Source: Candidatus Hydrogenedentota bacterium
GTDB taxonomy: Bacteria; Hydrogenedentota; Hydrogenedentia; Hydrogenedentales; JAEUWI01
NCBI GenBank assembly: GCA_016791475.1
Contig: JAEUWI010000009.1
Coordinates: 62,001-126,000, forward strand
Direction of reading: 5' to 3'
Length of the DNA stretch: 64,000 bases
Both the position numbers and the translations under genes were made by a program. The notes below the pieces were generated by a model. It was not told the origin of the DNA and searched no databases. It was given only the letters and a program-made list of their open reading frames with translations. How positions within the stretch are numbered: position 1 is the stretch's first letter; every line of letters starts with the position of its first letter. Shown piece after piece: positions 10,985-63,913 of the stretch.

Positions 10985-11035
10985 CTCGTTCCCACGGTCC
11001 TCCGTGGGAATGCATACCGTTCCGCTCGGCGGAAC
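10985..11035 (+). repeat. REP-like double hairpin, left copy
   Basis: The 51-base element has two adjacent hairpins: CCCACGG/CCGTGGG with loop TCCT, and GTTCCGC/GCGGAAC with loop TCG. A nearly identical copy lies in inverted orientation at 11716-11766, on the other side of the RAYT gene. Confidence 0.85.
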
Positions 11036-11067
11036 AAGCCTGCGGGTGCCCACTTCACACACCACTG

Positions 11068-11604
11068 TCACCCCCAGTCTTTGCACACTTCGATCAACCC
11101 CGACTCCCCCAAATAATTCCGCGCACTCGAATAACGCCAGTGCTCCGGCAAGTCCACATAACCCCGCTGCTCCGGGTTGTTGTGGATATAATCCAGCTTC
11201 TGCCGCATCATGTCCCAGCTCAGAATCTCCTGCGGATGGGACCCCTCCTGCCAAACCTGGAAATCCCGATCATCCTTGCCCCGCTTCTTGCAGAACTTCA
11301 TCTGCTTCAAGATCGTGTTCGCGCGAAGCTCCCGGAGACACTTTACGATCTGCTTCGCCGTGTAGGATTTGAAGTTCGCCACGTCGTGTCCTATGTCCTC
11401 CGACGCGGCGATCATGTGCAGGTGATTCTCCAGAATGACATAGCCATAGATGTTCAATCCCCGTTCCGACTGAAGATAGCGAAAGCTATCGAGAACGATA
11501 TCGACCGTCGCGGGGCGCGTGAACACGGGAAGCCAGTTCACAATGGTGCAGGTGAAAAAGTGTGCGGCCTTCGGATCGTCAATGCCGTAACGACTTCTAC
11601 CCAT
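11068..11604 (-). CDS. REP-associated tyrosine transposase (RAYT), first
   Basis: This 178-residue Y1-type HUH protein has the metal-binding pair in ENHLHMIA (His61, His63) and the single catalytic tyrosine in SYTAKQI (Tyr81). A strong AGGAGGGG site precedes the start. RAYTs nick single-stranded hairpins at REP sequences and are thought to spread or maintain them without being classical insertion sequences. Here the gene lies between inverted REP copies at 10985-11035 and 11716-11766, with a third related copy at 11847, exactly the arrangement expected of an active or recently active RAYT. The C-terminal part (IHNNPEQRGYV, HWRYSSARNYLG) matches the family's conserved tail, so the gene looks complete. 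Confidence 0.9.
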   Translation of the reverse strand: MGRSRYGIDDPKAAHFFTCTIVNWLPVFTRPATVDIVLDSFRYLQSERGLNIYGYVILENHLHMIAASEDIGHDVANFKSYTAKQIVKCLRELRANTILKQMKFCKKRGKDDRDFQVWQEGSHPQEILSWDMMRQKLDYIHNNPEQRGYVDLPEHWRYSSARNYLGESGLIEVCKDWG

Positions 11605-11715
11605 GACATGCCCCTCCTGGCGGGTCTCTTGGATACTTCTGGGTATAGTCTAAAACGTCGGGGCGGTTTTCTACAAGAGCGCGATTAAGAATTCCGGTAC
11701 GCTTTCATACCCCCT

Positions 11716-11766
11716 GTTCCGCCGAGCGGAACGATATGCATTACCACGGAGGACCGTGGTAACGAG
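11716..11766 (-). repeat. REP-like double hairpin, right copy (inverted)
   Basis: This is the reverse complement of the left copy at 48 of 51 positions. Two of the three differences are a compensating pair in the first stem (C-G becomes A-T), so the hairpin is kept while the sequence changes. It lies upstream of the RAYT start. Confidence 0.85.
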
Positions 11767-11846
11767 ACCATTTGGGTTGGGGGTGCGTTGCTAGGGCACG
11801 CCGCCTCAAGGCCATGTGCAATCCGAAACGAGACCGAGCTTCCTGG

Positions 11847-11892
11847 CTACCACGGTCCTCCGTGGTAGTCTATACCGTTCCGCTCCGCGATA
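11847..11892 (+). repeat. REP-like element, third copy
   Basis: The hairpin CTACCACGG/CCGTGGTAG (11847-11868) is followed by a degenerate second hairpin around GTTCCGCTCCGCG. Similarity to the left copy continues about 20 bases further. It ends about 30 bases from the ogt stop codon. Confidence 0.75.
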
Positions 11893-11920
11893 CAGCCCGA
11901 GGGCAGCCACTCGTCTTCCA

Positions 11921-58429: not shown

Positions 58430-58515
58430 CAACGTGGGTTAGGCGTCCCGCCTGACCATAGTAACTGCGGGACCGCCCACGACAACAGGTCAGGCAAGGT
58501 GCCCAACCCACGTTG
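58430..58515. repeat. Large hairpin H1 (30-nt loop)
   Basis: The arms at 58430-58457 and 58488-58515 pair at 22 of 28 positions, from CAACGTGGGTT inward to GCCTGACC. The loop is 30 bases and contains a smaller GC hairpin. Confidence 0.9.
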
Positions 58516-58609
58516 GCGATTCTCGATCAAAGCGCGTGGGCTTGATCGTAGCCGATCACGATACTACATCCCGCTCGATGACCCAGCGGCGTCTACCATC
58601 AAAGCGCGT

Positions 58610-58749
58610 CAAGGTGGGTTAGGCGTCCCGCCTGACCAAGGCGCCCAGCGTAACACAGTGGACTCCTAAAATTTGGTCATCTCTTGATTGGTCCGCGCCA
58701 ACAAACTCGGCATTGACATAAGGTCAGGCAAGATGCCCAACCCACGTTG
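58610..58749. repeat. Large hairpin H2 (84-nt loop)
   Basis: The arms at 58610-58637 and 58722-58749 use the same words as H1. The 84-base loop ends in AACTCGGCATTGACATAA. H1 and H2 start exactly 180 bases apart. Confidence 0.9.
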
Positions 58750-58857
58750 GCGCCCTTTTGGGACCCGATGTACAACCCGCTTGCTTCTGGCAACAACTCG
58801 CACTATTGTCAACCCGCTGCTTCTTTGCTAATCTGTTGTTCTTGGAGAACCATCTTC

Positions 58858-59547
58858 ATGGACGATATCCCGGCAGAAGTGAACGCTGAACACGATCTCG
58901 TTTCACCCTTTCTAACGCCCGGCGCGGAAGTGCGCAAAGACGCCCGCCATCTGCCGCACTGGCGGCTCGATAGCGCTTTCTATTTCCTCACGTGGCGTCT
59001 CGCCGATTCCCTGCCCCAGGAGAAGCTGCGGGCCTGGAAAGCCGAACGCGAAGCCTGGCTCGTAAAGCACCCCAGGCCATGGGATGACAAGACAATGCGG
59101 GACTACCGTGACCGCTTCCCCAAACGCCTCGAAGCCTGGCTGGATGCGGGCTATGGTGCGTGCCACTTACGCTCGCCGCGCTGCGCCAATATAGTCGCCG
59201 ATTCGCTCCACCACTTTGACGGTGATCGCTATGACCTCGCGTCATTTATAGTCATGCCCAACCACGTCCATGTCTTGTTTCAACTTCGGACTGATACTGC
59301 GCTGGAATCCGTGACGCACTCATGGAAAAGCTACTCCGCGAAGCAGATCAACAAGGCCCTGGGACGCTCGGGAACACTCTGGCAACAGGAAAGTTGGGAC
59401 CATCTTCTGCGAGGCATCCCCCACCTCGACCGATGCCTGTCCTACATCGCACTTAATCCCATGCAGGCAAAGCTGTCTCCGGGCGAGTACCTGTACTACG
59501 AAGCACCTGGATTTCGCGAAAGCACAGGACTTGACGCCCCTGAATAA
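58858..59547 (+). CDS. REP-associated tyrosine transposase (RAYT), second
   Basis: The 229-residue Y1-type HUH nuclease starts at the ATG at 58858 with GGAG nine bases upstream. It has MPNHVHVL (His136, His138) and the catalytic tyrosine in SYSAKQIN (Tyr159). An N-terminal extension of about 50 residues (HLPHWRLDSAFYFLTWRLAD) and the ending LSYIALNPMQAKL match the longer RAYT subgroup. It is distinct in length and sequence from the RAYT at 11 kb. It lies between hairpins H2 and H3 of a six-hairpin array that extends to 60374, so its likely substrates are its immediate neighbours. The frame is intact. Confidence 0.9.
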   Translation: MDDIPAEVNAEHDLVSPFLTPGAEVRKDARHLPHWRLDSAFYFLTWRLADSLPQEKLRAWKAEREAWLVKHPRPWDDKTMRDYRDRFPKRLEAWLDAGYGACHLRSPRCANIVADSLHHFDGDRYDLASFIVMPNHVHVLFQLRTDTALESVTHSWKSYSAKQINKALGRSGTLWQQESWDHLLRGIPHLDRCLSYIALNPMQAKLSPGEYLYYEAPGFRESTGLDAPE

Positions 59548-59656
59548 CCTCGTACTTACAGCGGTGTCGACCATCAAAGCGCGTGGGCTTGATCGTAGCC
59601 GATCACGACATTACATCCCGCCCGATGACCCAGCGGCGTCGACCATGAAAGCGCGT

Positions 59657-59742
59657 CAAGGTGGGTTAGGCGTCCCGCCTGACCTTGGTGACTGCGGGAC
59701 CGCCCGTGACAGCAGGTCAGGCAAGATGCCCAACCCACGTTG
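59657..59742. repeat. Large hairpin H3 (30-nt loop)
   Basis: The arms at 59657-59684 and 59715-59742 enclose a 30-base loop closely similar to that of H1. It is the first hairpin downstream of the RAYT gene. Confidence 0.9.
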
Positions 59743-59836
59743 GCGCTTCTCGATCAAAGCGCATGGGCTTGAGCGTGGCCGATTGCGACATTACATCCCG
59801 CCCGATGACCCAGCAAGGTCGACCATGAAAGCGCAT

Positions 59837-59922
59837 CAAGGTGGGTTAGGCGTCCCGCCTTACCATAGTGGCTGCGGAACCGCCCACGACAGCAGGTCAG
59901 GCAAGATGCCCAACCCACGTTG
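59837..59922. repeat. Large hairpin H4 (30-nt loop)
   Basis: The arms at 59837-59864 and 59895-59922 start exactly 180 bases after H3. The loop is 30 bases. Confidence 0.9.
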
Positions 59923-60000
59923 GCGCTTCTCGATCAAAGCGCGTGGGCTTGATCGTAGCCGATCACGATACTACAAGCGGCGTCTACCATCAAAGCGCGT

Positions 60001-60140
60001 CAAGGTGGGTTAGGCGTCCCACCTGACCAAGCCGCCCAGCGTAGCACAGTGAACTCATAAAATTTGGTCATCTCTTGATTGGTCCGCGCCAACAAACTCG
60101 GCATTGACATAAGGTCAGGCTGGAAGCCTAACCCACGTTG
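60001..60140. repeat. Large hairpin H5 (84-nt loop)
   Basis: The arms at 60001-60028 and 60113-60140 enclose an 84-base loop nearly identical to that of H2. The linker before it lacks about 16 bases compared with the H3-H4 linker. Confidence 0.9.
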
Positions 60141-60234
60141 GCGCTTCTCGATCAAAGCATGTGGGCTTGCTCGTGGCCGATTGCGATACTACATCCCGCC
60201 CGATGACCCGGCAAAGTCGACCATCAAAGCGCGT

Positions 60235-60374
60235 CAAGGTGGGTTAGGCGTCCCGCCTGACCAAGCCGCCCAGCGTAACACAGTGAACTCCTAAAATTTG
60301 GTCATCTCTTGATCGGTCCGCGCCAACAAACTCGGCATTGACATAAGGTCAGGCTGGAAGCCCAACCCACGTTG
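60235..60374. repeat. Large hairpin H6 (84-nt loop)
   Basis: The arms at 60235-60262 and 60347-60374 enclose an 84-base loop nearly identical to those of H2 and H5. It is the last member of the array, ending about 50 bases before the phosphotransferase stop codon. Confidence 0.9.
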
Positions 60375-60422: not shown

Positions 60423-61487
60423 CTACATCGCCCCCGTCTCAATACACCCCTCCGCCCGATGCCCCAGCGCCCCCACGACATAAATCAACGGTGCGAAACG
60501 CTCGTCTTTGGTCAGGCCCTGTTTGTATCGATAGTAAATCTGCTGCACGATCACCGCGAGCTTGAAGAGCGCGAACACATAGTAGAACAGTATGTTCTCC
60601 AGGCTGCGCCCGGTCAGTTCCGCGTATAGCGTCGCCATTTCTTTCCGGGTCATCATGCCCGGCTCCTGACTCAGGAAACATTGAATTACGCCTAGATCCG
60701 GGTCGCCCTTCTCGATCCAGTAGCCCAGTACCGTACCCAGATCCATCAGCGGATCGCCAATGGTGCACATTTCCCAGTCGAGCACGCCGATGATTTTCGT
60801 GGGGTCGTGGGGGTCCATCACCACGTTGTCGAACTTGTAATCGTTGTGCACCAGTGTCGCGCCGGAGTCTTCGGGGTGATTCGCTTCGAGCCACGCCATC
60901 ACGGTGTCGATCGCGGGGATGTCGTCGGTCTTCGATCCATGATAGCGCTTGATCCAGCCCGACACCTGCCGCGCCACGTAGGAGCCTTCTTTGCGCAGTG
61001 CGCCGAGTCCCGCGGCCTCGTAGTCCAGCCCATGGAGCGCCGCCAGGTTCTTTACGAAGGCCTCGCAGCAGCCGCGCACCGTCAACTCATCCGCGTCGAA
61101 GCCTTCGGGCTTCACCCCGCGAAATATCGAACCGCGAATGCGCTCCATCACATAGAACTGTGCGCCCATGACTTCCAAATCATCACACAGCGCCAGGGGC
61201 TTCGGCGCCGCCGGATAGATGGGGTGCAGCGCCGACAACACGGTGTATTCACGGCCCATGTCATGGGCGGACTTCACCTTGCTGCCGAAGGGCGGTCTTC
61301 GGAGCACCAGCTCCCGCTCGCCCACCTTGAGCAGATAGGTCAGGTTGGAAAAGCCGCTGGGAAACTGAGCCACTTCGAGCGTCCCCTCAAGATCGGGGAT
61401 AGCCGATTTCAGGTACGCCTCGAGACGCGAAAGGTCGAACTCTTCGCCAGGTCGGATGGGCTTGGGGGTGTCGATCATAGTAGTCAT
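60423..61487 (-). CDS. Phosphotransferase (ACAD10/11-type APH domain)
   Basis: The 354-residue protein has an aminoglycoside-phosphotransferase fold: SGFSNLTYLLKVG near residue 44, LVLRRPP near 60, LVHNDYKFDNVV near 212 (the catalytic loop with Asp) and GVLDWEMCTIGDPLMDL near 234. In eukaryotes this domain is fused to acyl-CoA dehydrogenase in ACAD10/ACAD11 and phosphorylates 4-hydroxyacyl-CoA. Here the two activities are separate adjacent genes with a one-base overlap. The start may also be the ATG nine bases inward. The same pathway is therefore likely: catabolism of 4-hydroxy fatty acids. Confidence 0.9.
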   Translation of the reverse strand: MTTMIDTPKPIRPGEEFDLSRLEAYLKSAIPDLEGTLEVAQFPSGFSNLTYLLKVGERELVLRRPPFGSKVKSAHDMGREYTVLSALHPIYPAAPKPLALCDDLEVMGAQFYVMERIRGSIFRGVKPEGFDADELTVRGCCEAFVKNLAALHGLDYEAAGLGALRKEGSYVARQVSGWIKRYHGSKTDDIPAIDTVMAWLEANHPEDSGATLVHNDYKFDNVVMDPHDPTKIIGVLDWEMCTIGDPLMDLGTVLGYWIEKGDPDLGVIQCFLSQEPGMMTRKEMATLYAELTGRSLENILFYYVFALFKLAVIVQQIYYRYKQGLTKDERFAPLIYVVGALGHRAEGCIETGAM

Positions 61488-62902: not shown

Positions 62903-63913
62903 ATGGATTCCTATCGTCTTATGAAGCCTCTGGGCCCCGCCCTGGCGGCCCTGCTCGCCATGGGCGCGCCCCTGGCCGCTCATGCGGATTTTGAGGTTAC
63001 AGGGTATAACACCTTTGTCGACGCATCGACTTCGGCGATCGACGGCATTGAGAATCGGGATCAGGATGCCCTGCAGGAAATTTCGAGTGATGTGGCGGAT
63101 GTATTCAACCCCTTTCTCGAGGTTAGCAGTGAATCTCCCGGCGGCGGTGTGAGTTCCACGCTCCTGACCGGCGGCATTTTCTCCGTCATCAATAGCGGCC
63201 TCCAATTGAACAGCCTGGCCACCCTCATCACTTCTTCCCAGTCTTGTGGAAACTGTGAAGGCACCACCAGTGTCGCAGTCGCCCAGGGCGTCGTCGAAAC
63301 GGAGATACTCTTTACCGTTTCCAACGGCGGAGAGACCTTTGAGTGGAGCGGAAGCCTCGACTCGACCCTCACAGCACCCGGAGAATTCACGGATGAAGTG
63401 AACGCATCTGTTTCCGCATCCCTGCGGGACGAAGGAACAGGTGATTTCCTTGGAAGCAGCCAATTGTTTTGCACACGCGAAGAAGGCACCTGCGAGAAGT
63501 CCGGTTCAATCTCGATTGAACTCCCGGATGGCGAGTATTCTTTTCGCGTTACTACCGGCGGGTCGACCCGCAATACGGGCGTAGCGTCACTTCCTGAACT
63601 GGAGTTGCTCGCGGAGTGGACACTGACCATTGGTACGCCGGTAATCGCTGAGGGTGAAGGCGAAGGCGAAGGGGAAGGTGAAGGTGAGGGTGAAGGTGAG
63701 GGTGAAGGCGAAGGCGAAGGGGAAGGTGAAGGCGAAGGTGAAGGCGAAGGTGAAGGTGAAGGTGAAGGCGAAGGCGAAGGTGAAGGCGAAGGATGCAATT
63801 TCTATATCGAGGGCACCATCAGCAAGGTAGGCACCAAGCTGGGCGACCTCTTCCTTTTGGGCGTGGCCATGATCACGCTGCTGGGGTGGTCGTCCCTTCG
63901 CCGCGACGCGTAG
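62903..63913 (+). CDS. Surface protein with Glu-Gly repeat and Cys/TM sorting tail
   Basis: The 336-residue protein starts at the ATG at 62903 with GGGAG upstream. A signal peptide ends near AAHA. The folded part (about residues 30-245) is beta-rich with Cys in SCGNCEG and CTREEGTC. From about residue 250, an uninterrupted Glu-Gly dipeptide repeat of more than 20 units is encoded by six-base units GARGGY at 63652-63791. The tail has CNFYIEG, a hydrophobic helix (LFLLGVAMITLLGWSSL) and RRDA. Repeat linker, Cys, helix and basic end resemble C-terminal anchoring signals. The repeat is prone to length change. A perfect hairpin follows the stop. Confidence 0.87.
   Translation: MDSYRLMKPLGPALAALLAMGAPLAAHADFEVTGYNTFVDASTSAIDGIENRDQDALQEISSDVADVFNPFLEVSSESPGGGVSSTLLTGGIFSVINSGLQLNSLATLITSSQSCGNCEGTTSVAVAQGVVETEILFTVSNGGETFEWSGSLDSTLTAPGEFTDEVNASVSASLRDEGTGDFLGSSQLFCTREEGTCEKSGSISIELPDGEYSFRVTTGGSTRNTGVASLPELELLAEWTLTIGTPVIAEGEGEGEGEGEGEGEGEGEGEGEGEGEGEGEGEGEGEGEGEGEGEGEGCNFYIEGTISKVGTKLGDLFLLGVAMITLLGWSSLRRDA

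Follow-up and report, generated by a model that had tools for sequence, protein, structure and literature searches.

The locus at 58430-60374 of the window (the whole stretch of 64,000 nucleotides that was analysed) is very probably a REPtron, in which the RAYT (TnpAREP) gene, coding for an HUH Y1 transposase, is surrounded by clustered REPINs of its own. Each REPIN consists of two GTGG-tagged REP palindromes in inverted orientation. REPtrons with such clusters are known from Pseudomonas, Stenotrophomonas and Opitutus. By analogy with such systems, we infer that the product of the RAYT gene at 58858-59547 mobilises these REPINs.

Layout of the hairpin array around the RAYT gene

The first-pass annotation of this DNA had described six hairpins with 28-nt arms, two before and four after the RAYT gene, with loops of 30 nt (H1, H3, H4) or 84 nt (H2, H5, H6). 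All six were found where it had placed them, and both loop sizes are exact. The features are as follows.

58430-58515: H1, REP dimer (REPIN) with a 30-nt spacer; arms at 58430-58457 and 58488-58515
58516-58609: linker of type A between H1 and H2; small hairpin intact
58610-58749: H2, REP dimer with an 84-nt spacer; right arm of the 30-nt class, apparent hybrid
58858-59547, plus strand: RAYT (TnpAREP) gene, 229 aa from an ATG with GGAG upstream
59568-59656: linker copy between the RAYT gene and H3, mosaic of types A and B
59657-59742: H3, REP dimer with a 30-nt spacer
59743-59836: linker of type B between H3 and H4; small hairpin degraded
59837-59922: H4, REP dimer with a 30-nt spacer
59923-60000: linker of type A minus 16 nt, between H4 and H5
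60001-60140: H5, REP dimer with an 84-nt spacer
60141-60234: linker of type B between H5 and H6; small hairpin degraded
60235-60374: H6, REP dimer with an 84-nt spacer, last unit of the array
60423-61487, minus strand: conserved aminoglycoside-phosphotransferase-like gene, next after H6

The start-to-start spacing of 180 nt reported for H1-H2 and H3-H4 was confirmed; it is 234 nt for H5-H6 and 164 nt for H4-H5, in the latter case with a linker that lacks 16 nt. The arms are imperfect, with a complementarity of about 82-88% within each pair, and the RAYT gene is flanked by inverted REPs, namely the right arm of H2 upstream and the left arm of H3 downstream. The near-identity of the loops within each class held for the 84-nt loops of H2, H5 and H6, but the 30-nt loops of H1, H3 and H4 share only about 80-87% of their sequence. 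Likewise, the smaller hairpin said to lie in the linkers (CGATCAAAGC with GCTTGATCG) is preserved between H1 and H2 and between H4 and H5, but degraded in H3-H4 (GCTTGAGCG) and H5-H6 (GCTTGCTCG). The changes there are uncompensated, so the linkers do not maintain this structure. Elsewhere in the window, a secreted-looking protein carries a long Glu-Gly (GEGEGE) repeat near its C-terminus (63600-63800).

The arms as GTGG-tagged REPs

Each arm is itself a palindrome of the form GTGGGTTRGGC-N-TCC-N'-GCCTGACC, in which an 8-bp stem with the GTGG tag at its foot is closed by a 3-nt loop (TCC). In an alignment of 25 distinct arms from the source genome and its congeners, 99% of the stem cells are paired, and five of the eight pairs change on both sides, giving 25 double-changed cells compared to 5.6 after shuffling; sliding the partner columns against each other abolishes the signal. 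In the third pair, a T-G mismatch is almost fixed. In the non-redundant set, the tag reads GTGG at every locus except one, and GTAG occurs in copies of the congeners. The arms are evidently built like REPs of the GTAG superfamily, whose tag has been described as GT[AG]G (PMC6006769); GTGG is also the tag of most GTAG-20 elements of Opitutus terrae (PMC3733652). Since GTTAGGC conforms to the GTTRRRY core of integron attC sites, we also weighed this identity and rejected it: the dispersed elements have their cores in inside-out order, and the arms are covarying hairpins in their own right.

A dispersed REPIN family with unrelated spacers

The first-pass annotation had proposed searching the genome for the arms and for both loop classes and counting solitary against paired copies. 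Allowing up to three mismatches, we found 57 arm matches on about 20 contigs of the 7.7-Mb draft genome and none for a reversed control pattern, so the arms of the array are no chance occurrence. The usual copy number of REPs exceeds 100 and is thus higher than the 57 arms present here. Nearly all arms occur in inverted pairs with their tags pointing outward. The loop search had a different outcome: the arms alone match elsewhere in the genome, and neither the 30-nt and 84-nt spacers nor the linkers of the array do.

Pair length outside the cluster varies from 135 to 150 nt, with a mean of 143.4 and an sd of 4.3 over 22 pairs (one short pair on contig C43 was set aside from this count). Spacers at the other loci measure about 84-102 nt, with one exception. 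Spacers of different loci are unrelated apart from three weak matches; matching spacers occur in tandem REPIN pairs at the same locus, as found at five loci besides the array. Each unit folds as a long hairpin. According to a crude gene caller, 16 of 18 pairs lie outside genes, although coding sequence makes up about 81% of the stretches concerned. Bertels and Rainey likewise described REPINs as constant in length with little conserved spacers (PMC3116915). Because the dispersed copies combine near-identical arms and a near-constant length with unrelated spacers, one might suppose that REPINs are not copied as a whole, and that the RAYT (or gene conversion under its guidance) instead restores arms where they stand or sets up REP pairs at a fixed distance on either side of DNA already there, although we regard this as improbable. 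Separately, the end of contig C6 and the start of contig C53 (L023, L033) carry an identical REPIN arm and flank, and the two contigs are therefore probably adjacent and joined by the REPIN repeat.

The RAYT protein

The reading frame at 58858-59547 matches the Y1_Tnp family (PF01797). Its best family match is NCBIfam NF047646 (REP_Tyr_transpos) with 69.9 bits (E 2e-19), short of the cut-off of 80; this model appears to be tuned to other subclasses. The sole PDB match by sequence is 4ER8, a structure of E. coli TnpAREP in complex with a REP, which is also the top fold match of an AlphaFold2 model of the protein (pLDDT 86.7), followed by the ISDra2 and IS608 transposases. The HUH motif reads NHVH, the Y motif YIALNP and the guide-contact motif WQQESWDHLLR. 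The W, Q, D, H and R residues by which the E. coli enzyme contacts its GTAG guide (PMC6006769) all have counterparts here, and most catalytic and guide positions are invariant among 31 relatives.

The gene is intact and has kept its catalytic residues. Domestication has been proposed for some RAYTs, and the enzyme may for this reason no longer move REPINs. With IS200/IS605 TnpA proteins (IS608, ISDra2) it shares the HUH Y1 fold, as predicted by the model, and by analogy probably also the use of hairpin substrates. It differs from them by Y...NP instead of Y...Q and as a single divergent copy without IS ends. An IS200/IS605 element was rejected on the basis of this Y motif, a score for NF033573 of 25.6 bits (cut-off 55) and the lack of near-identical copies in the genome, where the next relative is only 56-59% identical.

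Congeners, cognate pairing and other RAYT genes

A congener contains a RAYT of 71% identity which is likewise flanked by related arms in inverted orientation, some of them GTAG-tagged; the RAYT of another congener, G001, is flanked by copies of GTAGGATAGCCGTCCCGGCTGTCC. The arm family was not found in 57 other relatives searched with up to one mismatch. Two congeners preserve the synteny of the phosphotransferase gene and an acyl-CoA dehydrogenase gene near the array but have no RAYT at this place. Where contig C26 carries a dispersed REPIN, the two flanking genes are also found in G001, but the gap between them is shorter there and contains no REPIN; this fits a gain in the source genome, though it may also reflect a loss. 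The locus L026 gives no information as an empty-site test, since its gap in the congener is longer and filled with other DNA.

Two further RAYTs of the source genome are flanked by palindromes of their own families, which are likewise dispersed, namely GGGGGTTGACCATTCCTGGTCGACA for the one on contig C89 (L016), with dimers of 158-168 nt start to start, and GTGGCTTAACCTTTCAGGTTGAG for the one on contig C50 (L018/L078). One RAYT with one REP family is a known rule (PMC2817692, PMC6006769). The gene of the array had been counted as the second RAYT of the window, and there is indeed an earlier RAYT-like gene at 11068-11604 on the minus strand, coding for 178 aa with NHLH and YIHNNP motifs. It is flanked by 52-nt inverted repeats with 94% complementarity (10985-11036 and 11715-11766), each of which holds smaller palindromes, and a third copy follows at 11843-11895; the element at 10985-11895 resembles a TIRtron. 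In G001, GTAGGATAGCCG palindromes occur in regular runs on contigs C1, C4 and C19, for example at 315026, 315222 and 315420 on C4 (about 197 nt apart) and at 65676, 65721 and 65766 on C19 (45 nt apart).

Origin of the array and alternative explanations

The regularity of the array is ascribed to a second process, in which a REPIN together with its linker was duplicated in tandem and the copies underwent unequal exchange. Type A linkers lie in H1-H2 and H4-H5, type B linkers in H3-H4 and H5-H6, and the linker copy after the RAYT gene is a mosaic of both. H2 joins an 84-nt spacer to the right-arm type of the 30-nt class and looks like a hybrid. Tandem duplication with unequal exchange accounts for the linker mosaic, for H2 as a hybrid and for the occurrence of two spacer lengths. 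The two loop classes are therefore local spacer variants within a mosaic tandem duplication and do not represent two mobile unit types. The array had been singled out as far more regular than ordinary REP scatter. This does not mark it as novel, since REPIN clusters in which near-identical units and their flanks recur in order, in some cases beside RAYT genes, have already been described (PMC3116915, PMC3733652).

The array might also be nothing but the inert record of such a local duplication by slippage or unequal recombination, with a RAYT that has no present role and arms that are relics. The confinement of its spacers and linkers to the RAYT locus fits this explanation, as do the linker mosaic and the hybrid H2, which are compatible with homologous exchange. 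We nevertheless consider it unlikely, because it accounts for the array but not for a dispersed family with conserved length and covarying arms, does not explain why arms of this family also flank the RAYT of a congener, and is at odds with the intact catalytic residues of the enzyme.

It is improbable to a still higher degree that the locus represents an RNA structural array, a role suggested by the first-pass annotation, in which transcribed hairpins would serve termination, mRNA protection or sRNA production. In other cases REPs can influence mRNA, each unit makes a long hairpin and the dispersed copies sit between genes. However, an Rfam scan with gathering and E-value thresholds yielded no credible match, only chance matches of microRNA models to the long hairpin, and promoter- and terminator-like sites were not in excess over shuffled sequences. 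No conserved structure was detected in 18 spacers (mean z 0.1), and the small linker hairpin is not maintained. Any such RNA would be a by-product and leave the dispersal of the family unexplained.

The alternation of both spacer classes around the RAYT gene had suggested two self-propagating single-strand units, with 30- and 84-nt loops, that move together with the RAYT, but this is hardly credible, because neither loop sequence exists elsewhere in the genome, the dispersed copies carry unrelated spacers, and spacer and arm types are reshuffled inside the array, as in H2.

Likeness to known systems and proposed mechanism

The REPtron reading has a close counterpart in the REPINs and RAYT-associated clusters of Pseudomonas fluorescens SBW25 (Bertels and Rainey 2011, PMC3116915). 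Both consist of inverted REP doublets with conserved ends, hairpin potential and a poorly conserved spacer of fixed length, and in both, tandem clusters are repeated with their flanks, in SBW25 with one cluster per type beside its RAYT. The present family differs by its lineage and sequence, far fewer copies, the GTGG tag and a short 30-nt spacer variant restricted to the RAYT cluster. The REPs and REPtrons of the GTAG superfamily (Di Nocera et al. 2013, PMC3733652; Nunvar et al. 2010, PMC2817692) share with it a tag at one foot, an 8-bp stem and a 3-nt loop, outward-tagged (HH) dimers, clusters with flanking DNA, a RAYT between inverted REPs and an own REP family for each RAYT. Compared by description, the arm sequences could be matched to none of the 24 published families. 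Subclasses 2.4 and 2.7 of TnpAREP (Quentin et al. 2018, PMC6006769) show the same NHVH, WQ and D100/H101/R104 pattern and long GT[AG]G REPs; our enzyme has YIALNP as Y motif, and its likeness to them is one of motifs.

We retain the view of the first-pass annotation in that it links the hairpins to the RAYT and regards them as plausible substrates for the HUH enzyme. We propose that a REPIN would fold into a long hairpin when its DNA becomes single-stranded, for example on the lagging strand, and that the RAYT would bind the single-stranded REP hairpin and its GTGG guide, cleave 3' of the stem at a dinucleotide selected by the tag, and then move or copy the REPIN. By the published guide rule, the cleavage site expected for GTGG is CC or CA. 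A Marinomonas enzyme provided with a GTGG tag cleaved at CC and, with an efficiency below that of the wild-type tag, at CA (PMC8266576), which predicts CC or CA sites for the enzyme studied here as well.

The accepted picture of RAYTs and REPINs remains unchanged by this locus, whose arrangement is well known in bacteria and ordinary in kind. It adds a well-preserved pair of a RAYT and its REPINs with a GTGG tag and coevolution visible among congeners, from a lineage separate from the well-studied cases in Pseudomonas, Stenotrophomonas and Escherichia. Because several RAYTs with separate palindrome families are present in one genome, it offers a usable comparative case for the specificity between RAYTs and REPs.
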